From IMG/VR virus record IMGVR_UViG_3300033149_004313, positions 1 through 57,669 of that record: 57,669 nt of DNA, one strand, 5' to 3'. The number at the start of each line of letters is the position of its first letter. The stretch's first letter is position 1. This document shows, piece after piece, positions 4,361 through 57,669 of the stretch. The notes under the pieces are model-generated. The model did no database searches and had not been told where the DNA came from. It saw only the letters and a list, made by a program, of their open reading frames with translations. The position numbers and the translations under genes are program-made. The DNA is from a virus.

Positions 4361-4519
4361 ATGTGGTTATGGATACCTCTAATACTTCTTGCAATCGGTT
4401 TGGGAATCTATATTTTCATAGGTATTGCGACATTATATACTATATTTCCAGCAATCGATCACTCGCTGGGGGAAATGATTAAAATTATTCTCTTTTGGCC
4501 TTTTATTACGTATTTGTGA
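4361..4519 (+). CDS. Small hydrophobic membrane protein, 52 aa
   Basis: An ideal GAGGGAGA ribosome site precedes the ATG. The product is almost wholly hydrophobic, with one clear membrane segment (about residues 3-28) and a possible second at the C-terminus. Lying between lysozyme and a holin-like gene, it may be a holin or antiholin component. That is inferred from position and composition only. Confidence 0.7.
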   Translation: MWLWIPLILLAIGLGIYIFIGIATLYTIFPAIDHSLGEMIKIILFWPFITYL

Positions 4520-4582
4520 AAAAAAAAGATGTGGAATGATTTAAAAAGGAAGAAGGACCAATAAAAGGATATGTAATAATCA

Positions 4583-4696
4583 TATTAGTTTCCTGATATT
4601 TAGGGAGCGAGTTTTTGCCGAAAGGCTACGGTAGGGAAACCTACTAAGAGCGGGCTGGTAATGAGTGGGGGGTAGTTACCTATCAGGAAGCTAATA
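4583..4696 (+). ncRNA. Candidate structured RNA closed by a 16-bp helix
   Basis: TATTAGTTTCCTGATA (4583-4598) pairs with TATCAGGAAGCTAATA (4681-4696) over 16 positions with one U-G wobble. Inside are three hairpins: GCC-GAAA-GGC (4617-4626), GUAGG-GAAA-CCUAC (4631-4644) and GGUAA...UUACC (4657-4680), the last abutting the closing helix. Two GAAA tetraloops are typical of RNAs with tertiary packing. No ORF fits the interval. It lies about 30 bases upstream of the holin-like gene, so it could be a cis-regulatory leader or a stand-alone RNA. It does not match any riboswitch or ribozyme consensus I can recall. Confidence 0.6.
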
Positions 4697-4727
4697 CACA
4701 AAATTTAGAAGGAAAGGAGAAAGACGA

Positions 4728-4946
4728 ATGAGCTACAAGAAAGATCCTTGGATCGTAAGTGTAGTGTGGGGCCGTATCGGGGCGGCTGTATTGGCGCTGT
4801 TGGCCTTTGTTCTCGGGATATTTGGCTATTCCATGGGAATGGAAGATGTAGGCTCCGCTAATCAGCTCATAACTGCCATAATAGCTGGTGTGGGCGGTAT
4901 TCTTGCGCTAATAAGCAAGATACGTGAAACGAAAAAGATTAAGTAA
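4728..4946 (+). CDS. Holin-like protein, 72 aa
   Basis: Two hydrophobic segments (about 12-34 and 44-63) separated by a short polar turn, ending in a basic tail (KIRETKKIK). This is the class II holin layout, a pore-former that times release of the endolysin. A strong AAAGGAGAAAG ribosome site precedes the ATG. It lies between lysozyme and the Rz1-like lipoprotein. Proteins of this class diverge too fast for a family name by eye. Confidence 0.75.
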   Translation: MSYKKDPWIVSVVWGRIGAAVLALLAFVLGIFGYSMGMEDVGSANQLITAIIAGVGGILALISKIRETKKIK

Positions 4947-5149
4947 TGCACTGGATTGAAGTTATAGCGGAGTTGTTGAACCGTGTTGCCGAGATCATTG
5001 AAAGGATATGGTATGCACAACGCCAACAGCAAAGGCAGGAAGAGGCTGATATGGCCCATGATGATCCTTCTTCTGCTTTTGCTGACCATTTCGGTGGGAG
5101 CGTGCACCACATGCCGGATGCCTCCGAGACCGATAAAACCACAGATTGA
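4946..5149 (+). CDS. Amphipathic helical protein overlapping the Rz1-like gene
   Basis: Starts in the holin stop codon (TAATG). The 67-residue product has an amphipathic N-terminal helix and a Gln-rich charged middle. The lipoprotein gene at 5013 is embedded in another frame, an overlap like that of Rz and Rz1. A clear transmembrane segment is missing, so an inner-membrane spanin role is uncertain. Confidence 0.5.
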   Translation: MHWIEVIAELLNRVAEIIERIWYAQRQQQRQEEADMAHDDPSSAFADHFGGSVHHMPDASETDKTTD

Positions 5150-5243
5150 TGTGTATGAGTACGGCGAATACGTATGTTTCGACAGGGATGATGCAATGGA
5201 GCTGTTTGATTATATTTTAGAGCTTGAAGCTGGATACGAATAA
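5013..5243 (+). CDS. Rz1-like outer-membrane lipoprotein (o-spanin candidate)
   Basis: The 76-residue product has a basic N-terminus, a run of leucines and a lipobox SVGA-C with Cys31 as the acylation site, followed by a Pro-rich stretch (MPPRPIKP), as in Rz1 spanins that help disrupt the outer membrane. An AAAGGA site eight bases before this ATG favours it over the upstream ATG at 4983. The gene overlaps 4946-5149 out of frame. Its last base starts the next gene (TAATG). Confidence 0.7.
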   Translation: MHNANSKGRKRLIWPMMILLLLLLTISVGACTTCRMPPRPIKPQIDVYEYGEYVCFDRDDAMELFDYILELEAGYE

Positions 5244-5569
5244 TGACAAATGAAGTCACAAAAGAAGATATGATTAAGCATTTAGAGCGTTCTCCAGCTC
5301 AACTTGCATTTGATAACGAAAAGCTCACTGAAGATCAGGTAGCGAAAGACCTTGCTCTTATTCGGAGAAGGGCAAAAAAATTATTGAGCCCGAAACAGAA
5401 AGATGCTAAAATAATTGCTAAAGCAGCAAAAACATTACATGATTGTCTGCAAACCATTATAGCTGTGAGAGGTATGGAAGCCCCCAAAGTAGACAATAAA
5501 GAGCACTCCGGAGAAGTAACATTGAGAGTTGTTTATGATGATGAATTAAGTGAAAACGGTAAAGAATAA
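5243..5569 (+). CDS. Putative terminase small subunit
   Basis: A 108-residue, charged, mostly helical protein directly before the large terminase and joined to it by a TAATG overlap. Size and position fit a small terminase (DNA recognition for packaging). No helix-turn-helix is obvious by eye, so the name rests on context. Confidence 0.5.
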   Translation: MTNEVTKEDMIKHLERSPAQLAFDNEKLTEDQVAKDLALIRRRAKKLLSPKQKDAKIIAKAAKTLHDCLQTIIAVRGMEAPKVDNKEHSGEVTLRVVYDDELSENGKE

Positions 5570-6821
5570 TGGAATTGACAATTCATTTACCAGGTTTAGA
5601 TAAACATCCAAAACAAAAAGAATTCGTTAGAAGTTCAGCAAAGCGTAAAGTAGTAAGAGCAGGCCGAAGAGGTGGAAAAACTGTGGGTGTTGCGATATTG
5701 GCAGTTGAAAAATTTCTAAAAGGCCATCGTATTTTATATGGTGTACCTGTCACAGAACAATTAGATCGATTTTGGACAACAGTTGTTCGAGCACTCGAAG
5801 AACCTATTAAAAAAAAATTTTTTATAAAAATGAAACTAAAAAAATTATTGAACTTCCAGGCACAGAACAACGAATTAAAGCTAAGAGCGCCTGGAATGCG
5901 AATTCACTTCGTGGAGATTATGGAGACCTCTTGATTTTAGATGAGTTCCAACTTATGAGTAAAGACACTTGGGATGCAGTAGGAGCACCGATGCTGCTTG
6001 ACAATGATGGGGATGCAATATTTATCTATACTCCACCCTCGTTACACAGCCGGTCTGCTTCCAAGGCCGATGATCCTCAATATGCAGCCAAGATGTTCAA
6101 AAAGGCTAGAGAGTTGATGAACGGCGGTTCCACCCGATGGGCTGCCTTCCATTTTACATCTATGGATAATCCTCATCTGTCCAAAGAGGCGCTTGAAGAT
6201 ATTGTTACCGATATGAGCTCTCTATCCTACCGCATGGAGATTCTTGCGGAAGATATTGATGAAGCACCAGGTGCCTTATGGACAAGGGCCATGATTGAAG
6301 ATCATCGAGTAATGTCTGCACCAGAAGAATTACACAGGATTGTAGTGGCTGTTGACCCCTCCACTACTAGCACTGGAGATGAAGCTGGAATTATTGTTTG
6401 CGGAAAGTTGAAAGATGAAGGCTATGTTTTAGCGGATTATTCTTTGCAAGGAAGTCCTCTCACGTGGGCCAGAAAAGCTGTAAAGGCCTATCATGATCAT
6501 AAGGCTAATTTGATTGTAGCCGAGAAGAATCAGGGAGGGGAGATGGTGGAAACTACAATTCACCAGGTAGACCCTGATGTGCCAGTCAAACTAGTTCACG
6601 CTTCAAAAGGCAAGCAGGCTCGGGCGGAGCCTATCAGCGCTAAAGCAGAGAAAGGTAAGATTCACCATGTAGGGAGTTTCCCTCTGTTGGAAGATGAGCT
6701 TTGCCTGTGGCAGCCTGGAGACCCATCACCCAGCAGATTAGATGCGTGTGTCTGGGGTATGACGGAGCTTATTGGCAAACAGGCGTTTGATAGTATGGAT
6801 TTGGATGAGGTGTTGAGTTAA
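5569..6821 (+). CDS. terL: Terminase large subunit, split by a -1 frameshift
   Basis: The ATP-driven packaging motor and nuclease. The ATPase part reads in the first frame with Walker A RAGRRGGKTVG (G32-T38). After base 5817 the coding signal moves to the -1 frame, giving FYKNETKKIIELPGTEQR, then LLILDEFQLM (Walker B) and the nuclease domain with VAVDPST, IVAEKNQGG and RLDACVW. Read together the protein is about 417 residues, a normal length. In the original frame the ORF stops at 5934. An ATG at 5931 would leave out the upstream half of Walker B. The shift happens at A9T6 (5809-5823), which contains an A-AAA-AAA slippery site. Either programmed frameshifting or one missing base in the homopolymer explains it. 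Confidence 0.9.
5809..5823 (+). other. A9T6 homopolymer / possible -1 slippery site in terL
   Basis: Nine A then six T in the zero frame AAA AAA AAA TTT TTT. A tandem slip of two tRNAs on A-AAA-AAA by -1 would continue as ATT TTT TAT AAA AAT GAA, joining exactly the two terminase halves. I see no strong downstream pseudoknot or stem within the next 40 bases, which weakens the programmed case. A miscounted base here would have the same effect. Confidence 0.6.
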
Positions 6822-27391: not shown

Positions 27392-30300
27392 TGGAACCTT
27401 TTGATACATGGCAGCAAGACCCGGAATTTATCGAACTCCCTTTGTCGGAGAAGGCCAAGGTTTATCTAAATTATTTCGATCAAGAAATGACCGATGATGA
27501 GTTTGATAGCCTGCCTTCTTCTGAACAACGTAGAATCAAAACGAATTTCCTTCATGATCAAGGTGTAGATTTGGGTGGTGTCCCTGTCAAAGAGAAAGGC
27601 TTTATTGAAAAGCATATCGTTGAACCTTACATTGAGCCATTCCGAAGGAAACCTGCTGAGACGCAAATGCAGGGCTTAATGCCTAAAGAGGAACCTGAAG
27701 AGACAAAACTTATCGCCCCTGAAAAACCTTACCAGATTCTCAAGGATAAGGTATTGACTGATGTAAAGGAATCTTTGGAATCGCCTGAAAAAGAAGTATC
27801 ACCTTTCAAAAAACCTGATACATGGGGAGGCAAACGGAAACCTCATGGAGTTACGGGAACATGGGAAGCTGAACCAGAAAAAGCCGAATTTACAATAGGT
27901 AGATTAGGCCAACAGGCAATGCGTGGGGCAGCACAAGGTTTTGCGGATATACTGAGATTTATTAAAGCTGCTGAAGAACAAAGGGACATTGAAAAAGAAA
28001 TGAAATTGCCAAAGGGTATTATGCCCACTCCACAAGAGCGATTTCATATGACAGAGTGGATACGGAAACAAGAAAAGGAACCCACAGCTAAACAAATCAA
28101 AGCTGAGCGAGTCAGATATAGAAAAGAAATGCAGCAACTCAGGATCGGAAAACTTAAAAAAGGAATTGAGGCATTCCCAAAAGAACTGCCAAAAACCTCC
28201 GGTATTATTGAAGATGCGGTCAAAGGAATGGCAAGATTTTTGCCTTCTATGGGAGTTTCAGTTGTTAGTCCCATAGGTGGTGCCGCTATAACGTTCTCTC
28301 AGATTGTCGGCATGGAATATGATGAGATGATAAGCCAAGGAATAGATAAAGAAAGAGCCTTTGATGCTGCTGTAGTTTCTTCTTTGATGCAGACGCCTGT
28401 TGAAATGGCTGGTAACTTATTACAAATTGGGGTTTTGAAAAACTTAGCAAAAACCTTTAAGGTTTCTGGAAAAATATCTACAAAGGTTATTCAATTCTTT
28501 GAGGCTATGGGCAAAGGTACATTAGCCGAAGGTACAGAAGAACTTATACAACAATATCCAGCCGAATTTTCTAAAATATGGGCTGCCAATCCAGATCTTA
28601 CTCCAAAAGAATTATCTGAAGAATTTGTTAATCAGGTTTCTCAGATTACCAAAAGAGGCGTAGAAGCAGCGAAGGCTGGGGCAGTTGGAGGAGCTTTGCT
28701 TGCTGGCACCACTGGTGGAGCTATTCAAATTCCTTTAGAAATCAGTGAATATGTTTCTGAGAAACAGAAAAAATTGACTGAGAAAAAAGAAGCCGAACCC
28801 AAATTCCCCGAAGAGGAAGGCCCACCAGAATTTGTATTTCCAGAGGAAAAAGAGACCCCCAGGGTTATCAAGCGAGAGGAACTGAAGCCTGAAGATATTG
28901 AGGATATTCAGGCAGGCAAGGCGGTACTTGAAGAAGCTCCTAAAAAACCTGAAGTTACTCCACCAAAGAAAGAAGTTGAGAAACCGGCAGAAAAAGAAGA
29001 AGGGATTGAGATACCAGAGACACCTAAAAAACCCCCCTCAGAAGCCGAAATCAAGCCCACAGTGGAAGAAAAGGAAGAGGTGGAGGGTAAGGTTAGGCCT
29101 AAAGTTGATAGACCTCCACAGCCTAAAGCAATAAAGGGAAGTGAAATCATAGATCAATATTATGATTCAAAAAACAATATAGTTTATACTCTGCAAAAAA
29201 AGGGCGAGAAGTGGGGAATATTCTCTCATTCCAGAGTTACGAATAAAGCCTACAAAACATATGGAAATCAAATTGATTCTATTGAACGAACTGGAATGAC
29301 TGAAGCAGTAGCTAAAGATAAATGGAAACAGTATAAACCCACCCCAAAGGCGAAAGAGCCGTGGGCCAAGAAAGCATTAAAAAAAAGACCCTTAGCACAA
29401 CAAATAAAGGCTAAGGGAAGCGAACAAAATTACCTCGTACCCTGGATAGCAAGATCAGGAGGAATCAAAGAAACAGAACTTGCAGGAGAAATCAGGGATA
29501 TCATTTACACCGTTGATGCTAGAGGTAAAAAGAAATTAATGAAAGGTGTCACACCTGGATTTCTTAACAAGAAGGGCCGTGGCTTAGACGAAATAGTAAG
29601 GGATGCACGAGAAGCTGGCTTTGATGTCAAGGATACCGATCATCTCCTTGAATTGATTGAAAGAGACCTTGGCGCTAAGACACCTCAAGAACGTATTACT
29701 CGCTTGACAGATACATCATTTGAAGATAAGCTATGGGAAGATGCAATAAAGGAGGCTGAAGCCAATGGAATCAGCGAGAGAGAGATTAAAGAATCACTTG
29801 AAAGAGAAGTTACGGAAGAGATTGCGCGAGAGGCTGAATTTGCCAAAGCCGAAAGGGAAGCAATCCAAGCCGAAAGTAATTCCTTCTTCAAAGAAGAAGT
29901 AAGTTTTAAGCCTGAAGAGTTTGAACCTGCCAAGAAGCCTACCCCTATACCAGACATAAAACACTCCAAGCTCATGCCCTACACCAAACGGGGTGATCTC
30001 GCCAATCAAATATTGATGGACAAGAATGGCGTCGTCTATGAGGGCAGAGGCGAGGAACATATTGAGATTCTGAAGCATTTCAAGCTCAAGCCCGATGATA
30101 TACAGAAAGCTGGCATGATAAACATGCATGGAAATTATGTGTGGAAAGGCGTTGAAGGTAGAATAGAAGACTACAGGCGCTTATGGAAGGATGCTCTGGC
30201 AATGAGGGAGAGGGGAGAGCCAGAGGTATTAAAGGAATATCCCAAACCCTCCAAAGAAAAGAAGATAAGAGACTTTGAGAAAGAAACCACTACCCCTAGC

Positions 30301-45893: not shown

Positions 45894-45953
45894 AGGGAAT
45901 ACAAGGGAGACTTTTCATATATTATACTGTTAGCCATTAAGAAAGGAGACATT

Positions 45954-46217
45954 ATGAACAAAGGCAAGTTAATATTCCAAACCAAACCAGACAGAGGCTT
46001 TATTTTTAAAGCCTGGGAGTTACCCGATTCAAATGGTGATGCTCTGGTTGAAGTAGAACGAGACAAAAAGGTCATACGAAGTTTTAGCTTCCCAGCCTAT
46101 AAGGTCTGGAATATCCCTGCACATTCTGATGATATTATTCAAAGCGAATTAAACAAAGATGCTGAAGGATATATAATTGCTGGTTCAGATGGGCTTGGCG
46201 GGAATGTTTTTGGCTAA
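45954..46217 (+). CDS. Hypothetical protein, 87 aa
   Basis: AAAGGAG site. Small beta-rich protein. Gene lies within the cassette-like unit 45929-46266, its stop codon inside the R''-like box. Not recognised. Confidence 0.7.
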   Translation: MNKGKLIFQTKPDRGFIFKAWELPDSNGDALVEVERDKKVIRSFSFPAYKVWNIPAHSDDIIQSELNKDAEGYIIAGSDGLGGNVFG

Positions 46218-46266
46218 CCAGCCATTTGAGCCGCCGTTTTCGGTCAGCTCAGCTAAATGTTATGTG
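46211..46266 (+). other. attC-like site 1
   Basis: TGGCTAAC (R''-like), CAGCC spacer, ATTTGAGC (L''-like), CCG-TTTT-CGG centre, GCTC-AGCT-AAAT (L'-like with extra bases), GTTATGTG (R'-like). AAC and GTT core triplets and the imperfect fold match attC form at the short end of its length range. Called by eye only. Confidence 0.35.
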
Positions 46267-46357
46267 TGCATCGAGGGCATATTGATGTGTACCATCCGGA
46301 GGAGCGCATCTTAATAATTGATAACAATTAGATATGAGCGACCTGGACACACATAAC
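46259..46357 (+). ncRNA. Structured leader closed by a 10-bp helix
   Basis: GTTATGTGTG (46259-46268) pairs exactly with CACACATAAC (46348-46357). Inside are CATCGA/TTGATG and AATTG-ATAA-CAATT hairpins. It ends eight bases before the AAAGGAG site of the next gene, so could act in cis. Confidence 0.45.
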
Positions 46358-46376
46358 TACCACAAAGGAGTATATG

Positions 46377-46574
46377 ATGGAATTTAAAATCCAGTTTTTT
46401 GGTCGTGTATTTTCTATATCTATTGGTCATAAAACTTATTGGTTTGAACAATTACCACTAATTTTGATTGTTGAAGAATTTTATAATGAACGCCGAGAAG
46501 TAGATTATGCCAACTATATATGGAGTACGGCTGACTGGCCGTTCCACTTAACTGCTAAAAGGCATAGCAAGTGA
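46377..46574 (+). CDS. Hypothetical protein, 65 aa
   Basis: AAAGGAG site before tandem ATGs (46374, 46377). Small aromatic-rich protein. Its 3' end lies within an attC-like hairpin. Not recognised. Confidence 0.65.
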   Translation: MEFKIQFFGRVFSISIGHKTYWFEQLPLILIVEEFYNERREVDYANYIWSTADWPFHLTAKRHSK

Positions 46575-46592
46575 TCTAATCGTTATGTGGAA
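46542..46592 (+). other. attC-like site 2
   Basis: TTCCACTTAAC (46542-46552) pairs with GTTATGTGGAA (46582-46592) at ten of eleven positions. TGCTA/TAGCA forms an inner stem. CACTTAAC also matches the reverse complement of the upstream boundary GTTATGTG (46259) at seven of eight bases. The 3' ends of sites 1 and 2 are similar (CTAA-N2-GTTATGTG). Shorter than typical attC. Confidence 0.3.
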
Positions 46593-46666
46593 TAATGCTG
46601 GCCCCGAATATGGATAAGCGTAAGCGAAGAGATAGTTGTATATGACTATCACCAGCTTATTCCACA
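46586..46666 (+). ncRNA. Structured interval closed by a 15-bp bulged helix
   Basis: TGTGGAATAA/TTATTCCACA (46586-46595 with 46657-46666) continues past a single bulged T as GCTGG/CCAGC (46597-46601 with 46652-46656). Inner GATAGT/ACTATC hairpin. No ORF. It precedes the gene at 46709. Confidence 0.5.
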
Positions 46667-46708
46667 CAGTTTATGTAAGCGTTACACAACACTTTGAAAG
46701 GAGAAATT

Positions 46709-47200
46709 ATGAGCGGTGGAAGTTATGACTATCTTTACATTAAAATGGAAGATGCTGCCGAAACATTAAGTAATGACAAAAACCCTTTGCGGAAAGCATT
46801 CGCTAGAAAGTTACAACTTTTTGCAAAAGCTATGCATGATATTGAGTGGGTTGATTCTTATGATTATGGTCCTGGTGATGATGAAAAAGCAATTAGGCAG
46901 GCACTTGGAAAGAATGCTGATAAGCTAGCGCTGCAGGAAGTTGTATTAGCGGCTGAGGCAATTAAAAAAGATTTATCTAAATATAATAAAGCTAACAAAT
47001 TAATCTATAGCATTATTTGGAGAAATATAATGAAATATCCTTTCTGGAAAACAAACGTCTACTGGCGATTTAAAGGTGAGAAGACCTACCGTTATGGATA
47101 TCCAACACAAATGAATAATGGACTTGTTCGTATGGGTAGGTGGCATGGTGATATAGCAGGTGGAATAATTGTTGATATAAGGGATATCGAAGTCAAATGA
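46709..47200 (+). CDS. Phage protein of the MSGGSYDYLY type, 163 aa
   Basis: AAAGGAG site fixes the ATG at 46709. The opening MSGGSYDYLYIKMEDAAE is common to a family of phage proteins of unknown function. The C-terminal part (MGRWHGDIAGGIIVDIRDI) is beta-rich. Confidence 0.7.
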   Translation: MSGGSYDYLYIKMEDAAETLSNDKNPLRKAFARKLQLFAKAMHDIEWVDSYDYGPGDDEKAIRQALGKNADKLALQEVVLAAEAIKKDLSKYNKANKLIYSIIWRNIMKYPFWKTNVYWRFKGEKTYRYGYPTQMNNGLVRMGRWHGDIAGGIIVDIRDIEVK

Positions 47201-53908: not shown

Positions 53909-54782
53909 AATTATCATCCAAGAAATCCGGGACTGGCTTGAGATCGTGGAAGGCGATTTTCATATCAACGATCTATATAGCTGGATGCCGGATTTCTGCA
54001 AGTCAACTACTGATAAACGGTATATATCACGCTGCCTCTGCCGACTAATAGATGAAGGGCTCGTATCACGCAACGGTAAATACGGCCAATATCGCAAAGT
54101 GTCGCAAGAGCTTGAGCGCATGGATATCGTGGGAGCCGATGAGACCCCTGTTGATATATGGCTGCCGTTTAACCTCACAGATTACGCTCAAATCATGCCA
54201 GGAGCGATTATCCTGATAGCAGGCGAGCAGGATACAGGTAAGACCACCATTGCCCTTAATATCGCCTGGGCGAATCGCCTTACCTGGGATGTGCACTATT
54301 TTAATAGTGAGCTCTCTGCTGGAGGGCTCAAAAAGCGTACCATGCAGTTTACCAATACCGAGCCATATCAATGGGCTGAGAGAATTAATTTTTACAGCAA
54401 GTCGCATGATTTCCAGGATCACGTTAAAAAAGGTCCCGATAAATTAAATATTATTGATTTCATGGAAGTCGGCGGAGATGACTACCCTTATGTGGCATCC
54501 TGGATTAGGGCGATACACGATCAGATTATTGACAATGGTGCTATTGCTGTTGTATGTTTGCAAAAACCACCTGGAAGAGATGAGGCAACCGGTGGCAGAG
54601 GTACGCTAGATAAACCCAGGCTATATCTTGCTGTGAGTAGAGGCGTTATAAAGATAGTGAGGGCCAAAGACTGGGCAGGCAATGTAAATCCAAGGGATAT
54701 GACCATTAATTTCAAGATTATCAATGGCAGCGAACTGCTTCCAGTAAGCGACTGGATGAGACCGGATAAATGGACTATATAA
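53877..54782 (+). CDS. RecA-fold ATPase with winged-helix N-terminus (replication)
   Basis: 301 residues. The first 85 form a predicted winged helix. AGEQDTGKTTIALNIAW (about 113-129) is Walker A; GAIAVVCLQKP (about 220) is Walker B-like; later RGTLDKPRLYLAVSRG fits the RecA/DnaB core. Comparable to phage RepA/DnaB-like helicases or Sak4-type recombinases. Placement directly before the iterons favours a replication initiator or helicase. GGAAAG site. Confidence 0.75.
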   Translation: MAEDRPTKRNKIIIQEIRDWLEIVEGDFHINDLYSWMPDFCKSTTDKRYISRCLCRLIDEGLVSRNGKYGQYRKVSQELERMDIVGADETPVDIWLPFNLTDYAQIMPGAIILIAGEQDTGKTTIALNIAWANRLTWDVHYFNSELSAGGLKKRTMQFTNTEPYQWAERINFYSKSHDFQDHVKKGPDKLNIIDFMEVGGDDYPYVASWIRAIHDQIIDNGAIAVVCLQKPPGRDEATGGRGTLDKPRLYLAVSRGVIKIVRAKDWAGNVNPRDMTINFKIINGSELLPVSDWMRPDKWTI

Positions 54783-54783
54783 A

Positions 54784-54925
54784 TGACGACTTTGACGATT
54801 GTGACGACTTTGACGCATTTGACGACAAATGACGACTTTATGACGACTTTCTTTGAGCTGATTTTCTTGTTATATCATATAGTTACGGCAAAGCACCTTT
54901 TTAGAATGACGATTTTGACGACTTT
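54784..54925. repeat. TGACG iteron array
   Basis: Nine TGACG units start at 54784, 54793, 54802, 54811, 54820, 54830, 54841, 54907 and 54916; the first five are exactly nine bases apart. Consensus TGACGACTT. Directly after the ATPase gene and before AT-rich DNA, the classical iteron-origin layout. Confidence 0.8.
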
Positions 54926-57448: not shown

Positions 57449-57669
57449 ATGGATAGAACAACTTTTAAAAAACAATATGACCCTGACCCAAAGGATGCTT
57501 CTACTCAGGAATATATACGTAAACTTGAGGAAGAGAATGATCGGCTCAAAAAGCAGGTGGGCACTGATGAGAGGCTTTATGATTACATTAAAGGCGGTAT
57601 AGAGGCATTTGAACCACCTAAAAAAATAATATATAATAAGCCGGTATTATCCCACGATGAGGTGCACGC
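57449..57669 (+). CDS. Metallophosphoesterase, 5' part (continues at base 1)
   Basis: ATG at 57449 begins the charged helical N-terminus (EYIRKLEEENDRLKKQ) and continues, through the repeated 114 bases, into the reading frame at base 2. The full gene has 343 codons. See the entry starting at 1. Confidence 0.9.
   Translation, partial: MDRTTFKKQYDPDPKDASTQEYIRKLEEENDRLKKQVGTDERLYDYIKGGIEAFEPPKKIIYNKPVLSHDEVH
57556..57669. repeat. Terminal direct repeat, copy 2
   Basis: Identical to bases 1-114. See copy 1. Confidence 0.95.

Follow-up and report, generated by a model that had tools for sequence, protein, structure and literature searches.

In an integrated integron gene cassette, the R'' element of the attC site is complementary to the 5' end of that same cassette because this is where the circular form closes. 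Cassettes can also be inserted at secondary sites that are not attC. Phages whose genomes carry attC cassettes without an integrase have already been published, and some of these cassettes recombine (Qi et al., 2023, PMC9892861). Specifically, the attC sites of Tetrasphaera phage TJE1 are experimentally active (PMC9892861). Published pipelines require two attC sites within a few kb as a guard against false positives, although a lone site may be genuine (PMC9024848). The route by which a gene is turned into an integron cassette is largely unknown (PMC5371416).

The DNA analysed here, referred to below as the window, is the whole of IMG/VR virus record IMGVR_UViG_3300033149_004313 (57,669 b, positions 1 to 57,669). 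Its two ends (1-114 and 57556-57669) form an exact 114-b terminal repeat, given which the phage genome is probably complete as assembled. A terminase-like gene is present, and the portal gene has distant matches only, such as that of Roseobacter phage CRP-212 at 22% identity. Searches of the window with TIGR02249 and PF00589 at E up to 10 reveal no integron integrase and no tyrosine recombinase of any kind, which bears out and extends the original prediction that an integron integrase is missing. The window is thus not a complete integron, which would carry an integron integrase gene, and the phage is apparently lytic because an integrase is not found. We read positions 45930-46259 as a lone integron gene cassette that a phage without an integrase captured via the integron integrase of a host, and we assign this reading a probability of roughly 0.8.

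As with the TJE1 sites, the attC site in the window lies behind a small phage ORF, has G^TT core sites and resides in a genome without an integrase, and the same covariance model (R2, described below) matches both. The two also share the register TNA-N7-GTTA and the AAT-GTTATG end, as read from the sequences. TJE1 has two or more attC sites whereas the window has one, and screens that demand two would drop it. Moreover, recombination has been demonstrated for the TJE1 sites, whereas the site in the window is known from its sequence, and the gene is also different. Cassettes of bacterial chromosomal integrons are likewise similar in that they hold a single small ORF, exhibit own-boundary complementarity between R' and R'', and have at their 3' end an attC that points the same way as the gene. 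Unlike those integrons, the window has neither an integrase nor an array, and its cargo comes from a phage gene family. Finally, the arrangement resembles insertions at secondary sites, since there is no upstream attC and the flanks would join at G^TT, although the empty site of this phage is one that we infer. The features are collected in the table.

Table. Coordinates of the putative cassette, its neighbours and the compared contigs (window positions unless another record is named).
Feature	Position	Strand	Remarks
Cassette 5' core site R', GTTAGCCA	45929-45936	+	cut after G; exact reverse complement of 46211-46218
Putative integron gene cassette, 330 bp	45930-46259	+	form TT...G at a G^TT target; 8-nt own-boundary complementarity plus 3' attC
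87-aa cassette gene	45954-46217	+	phage family, conserved FPAYKVWNI-x-AH; homologues L002, L003, L004, L005, L085, L088
attC site	46211-46266	+	position profile rank 1 in the window; covariance model; fold strand preference
attC R'', TGGCTAAC	46211-46218	+
attC L'' stem, GAGC	46228-46231	+	loop region next
attC L' stem, GCTC	46247-46250	+
attC R', GTTATGTG	from 46259	+
Hairpin B, GTTATGTGTG...CACACATAAC, inverted pair	46259-46359	+	10-bp perfect base; fold z -3.4 on +
66-aa ORF, claimed second cassette gene	46374-46574	+	cassette status not supported
Claimed second attC, rejected	46545-46589	+	profile about 1; 8.3 bits on a 27-nt fragment
Hairpin C, TGTGGAATAATGCTGG...CCAGCTTATTCCACA	46586-46666	+	directly 3' of the GTTA of 46582; 15 bp, one bulge; fold z -3.9 on +, -4.7 on -
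Array in L004 (IMGVR_UViG_3300044612_001434)	4488-6327		five attC sites, one strand direction
Cassette in L083 (IMGVR_UViG_3300024259_000115)	6142-6460		319 bp, form TT...G, 74-aa ORF

The boundaries of the cassette are marked by complementarity. The 5' core site occurs once in the window, and its exact reverse complement, R'', likewise occurs once and spans the TAA stop codon of the 87-aa gene (46215-46217). Among about 200 ORFs of at least 50 aa on both strands of the window, this gene alone has an 8-nt GTT.../...AAC end match, and the extent of the cassette given in the table therefore follows from the boundary complementarity of this ORF. The same own-boundary rule picks one ORF in TJE1 (1072-1467), located between two attC matches, and in phage P12002L it selects three, one of them a methyltransferase gene (29248-29973). 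In CRP-212 and HTVC103P, which are phages without attC matches, it picks no ORF. When the attC of the circular cassette is rebuilt, its bottom strand folds along the whole length of the site (-28.6 versus -23.7 kcal/mol). Because no attC is found upstream of the cassette, its target is taken to be a plain G^TT. Joining the flanks suggests that this target read ATACTG^TTATGTGTG before insertion, and the empty site in a relative would read ATACTGTTATGTGTG; a search for relatives of the phage that might show it found none close enough.

The original prediction also called for an attC model to be run on both strands, and we did this with models of our own. TIGR02249 identifies integron integrases in 92 of 229 genomes. 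From the DNA next to some of these integrase genes, attC sites were gathered by structure (AAC...GTT, R''/R' complementarity and a hairpin) and curated by hand to yield 41 sites. These exhibit the expected architecture, with TAACAA-N5-TC-x-A..., an extrahelical base, L''/L' pairing and CGTTA. A position profile was then applied to all AAC...GTT pairs in the window, on either strand. The top-ranking site is 46212-46265 (+), with a score of 26.7, and the runner-up scores 20.3. True attC sites range from 23.2 to 55.2 under this profile in leave-one-out scoring, and the score of the site in the window is at the low end of that range. Dinucleotide shuffles of the window (2,968 in all) contain 71 equally good profile sites, which corresponds to 0.024 per window.

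The covariance model R2, which was trained on 25 of the curated bacterial chromosomal-integron sites with L''/L' pairs only, yields one significant match in the 57,669-b window. This match is again at 46212-46265 (+), with 23.1 bits and E=0.0044, a rough value that is weakened somewhat because R2 was a second attempt. On the opposite strand, the same element scores 10.5 bits. An earlier model, R1, represented the ends only, with R''/R' paired, and it missed the site in a search of the whole window and scored it at 8.9 bits locally. We judge that R1 failed because its loops had been trimmed, such that no loop insertions were learned, and because the R' in place is foreign to the site. R2 is R1 rebuilt with loops and without the R pairs, and the position profile scan preceded both models. 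When applied to positive controls, R2 finds three sites in TJE1 (32.7, 26.6 and 21.5 bits) and five in the phage contig L004 (39.9 to 24.3 bits). The negative control, 191 kb of other phage DNA, stays free of matches up to E = 10, in a set that includes P12002L, whose published attC sites R2 misses, and the sensitivity of the model is therefore limited.

The match falls exactly on the element that had been proposed as the first attC, and on the expected strand. This element has the R''-L''-L'-R' order, the AAC and GTT ends and the hairpin of an attC site at the 3' end of the cassette, with a short L''/L' stem of 4 bp plus 3 bp. It is the one site in the whole window, which accordingly does not hold a CALIN, a term that requires at least two attC sites no more than a few kb apart.

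We propose that the integron integrase of a bacterial host at some time recombined a circular cassette into the phage genome, and that this reaction would have proceeded via the folded bottom strand of the cassette attC. The point of insertion would be the secondary, non-attC G^TT site described above. The cassette would have brought in a gene of phage type together with a ribosome-binding site of its own, oriented with the phage operon, and we propose that it was retained because the gene is useful and is expressed from phage transcription. The cassette could excise or move again upon infection of any host whose integron is active.

The 87-aa protein matches no family in Pfam or PHROG. Its predicted model is confident (pLDDT 87) and corresponds to a small alpha/beta structure, for which no fold match is found among PDB and viral models at E up to 0.001. 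We considered whether this might be a common bacterial cassette gene and rejected this idea, since it is present in 1 of 369 sampled bacterial genomes, and that one was already known. The family is a phage family. In three of its members (L002, L085 and L088) the gene resides within ordinary gene runs without attC, and in three others (L003, L004 and L005) it is on contigs with attC sites. The window and L002 share 70% protein identity for this gene, and their DNA identity is 0.77 as far as the stop codon, where R'' starts, and drops there to 0.43.

The homologue in L004 (6001-6297) is located between two opposite-strand attC sites and shows exact 10-nt boundary complementarity, in agreement with the proposal that the gene of the first unit is a cassette gene. 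L004 is a phage contig that also encodes RecT, SSB and exonuclease. The ORFs between its attC sites are on the other strand and include those for 59 aa, 98 aa and an RNA ligase, among others. The attC sites of L003 and L005 are likewise on the opposite strand, and they are weaker or do not directly adjoin the homologue. A small tree of the family groups the window with L002 (91/95) and L003 with L004 and L005 (90/94), and places the uncassetted L085 beside the latter three. This grouping suggests that cassettes formed twice independently and in opposite directions, in a tree of a short protein in which no branch is strongly supported. One gene family is thus seen in three states, without attC, with attC in sense and with attC in antisense, which is less usual.

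In L083 a cassette with GTTAGGTGTC at its start and GACACCTAAC ahead of a long hairpin splits, at TGG^GTG, a phage gene of the MSGGSYDY type that is a relative of window gene 46709. Uninterrupted homologues reveal the identity of the target gene, and joining the flanks restores its reading frame, with 58 of 98 positions identical to gene 46709. The rebuilt circle site folds on its bottom strand with -47.6 kcal/mol. Because R2 does not call the site in place, where its 3' neighbour is GGT rather than GTT, and because the position profile of the rebuilt site is low (14.2), assignment of this attC rests on its structure and boundaries. L083 appears, from its sequence, to hold a second independent insertion of a single cassette in a phage contig.

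These observations indicate that phage genes too can travel as integron cassettes, with the window as a further single-site case, and they suggest that screens requiring two attC sites per cluster miss lone phage cassettes. Since uncassetted (L002, L085, L088), sense (window) and opposite (L004) states coexist in one family, the gain of cassette boundaries can be read from it, which bears on the question of cassette origin (PMC5371416). A tentative and rather doubtful extension is that phages are a birthplace of cassettes. One gene family would have been cassetted at least twice, once in sense with attC in the window, whose nearest uncassetted relative is L002, and once against attC in L004 (with L003 and L005), for which that relative is L085. 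Single cassettes would then insert within phage genomes wherever an ordinary G^TT or G^GT offers a site, even inside phage genes as in L083.

A variant of our preferred reading is that the cassette is a decayed and non-recombining remnant of a longer array or of a complete integron, in the phage or in a host. The attC is weak and is the sole one left, the integrase is absent, and the copy of GTTATGTG at 46582 may be what is left of a core site. However, this is a compact insert with perfect core sites, and the single-cassette insertion in L083 has perfect boundaries as well, such that an array is not needed to explain the window. We regard such a remnant as rather unlikely.

Less probable still is that the element 3' of the 87-aa gene resembles attC by chance and is an ordinary RNA hairpin between genes, serving as a terminator or mRNA-stability element. 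The element is indeed situated between two co-oriented genes, an RNA fold can be drawn on both strands, and single attC calls are prone to false positives (PMC9024848). Nevertheless, no intrinsic terminator is called at the element, and Rfam, which holds no attC family, gives no match in the window at gathering score. Compared with shuffled sequences, the fold has z -0.36 on the + strand and -3.34 on the opposite strand. The bottom strand therefore folds better than shuffles and the top strand no better, which is the polarity of attC and not of a cis-acting RNA. Furthermore, the gene to which the attC match belongs is also the one whose exact boundary complementarity is unique in the window.

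We prefer a single cassette also over the two-cassette array (45929-46589, with the 66-aa gene in the second unit) of the original prediction, which is very improbable: GTTATGTG is present at both 3' junctions and CACTTAAC at 46545 is complementary at 7 of 8 positions to the 5' end of its own unit, but 46545-46588 has a profile score of about 1, where real sites have 23-55, and 8.3 bits from R2 on a 27-nt fragment alone, and CACATAAC at 46350, which precedes the gene and closes hairpin B, complements that 5' end better. All of the motifs quoted in the prediction occur at the places given for them, and its description of cassette-like units holds well beyond chance for the first and is not supported for the second, whose 3' element is not attC-like. 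CTAA-N2-GTTATGTG is present at both 3' ends as claimed, and by our estimate shared motifs of this size are often expected by chance in a genome this long. GTTATGTG is also found at 2512. No relatives of the 66-aa ORF were found in viral contigs or phage records.

Hairpins B and C, both missed by the original prediction, each start at a G^TT (GTTATGTG) and are each located just upstream of a ribosome-binding site. Neither has an Rfam match at a significant level. We rejected the possibility that they are homologous units, as their similarity is no greater than that of shuffles, and hairpin B was also rejected as an attC because its polarity is GTT...AAC instead of AAC...GTT. The base of hairpin B coincides with the 3' junction of the cassette, and this hairpin may be the original target site. 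Inverted GTTRRRY motifs are known to border phage attC clusters (Qi et al., PMC9892861), and the likeness of hairpin B to such a border motif is a lead that we do not count as evidence. Our guess is that these two predicted structures could be leader RNAs.

Two further observations concern other parts of the phage genome. A 163-aa ORF at 46694-47200 resembles the MSGGSYDY protein (about 97 aa) followed by a further part, and its residues 117-163 alone match a protein of Caulobacter phage Cr30. Beyond the gene that ends at 54782, short tandem TGACGACTTT-like units extend over 54784-54925 and are possibly a replication or packaging signal.
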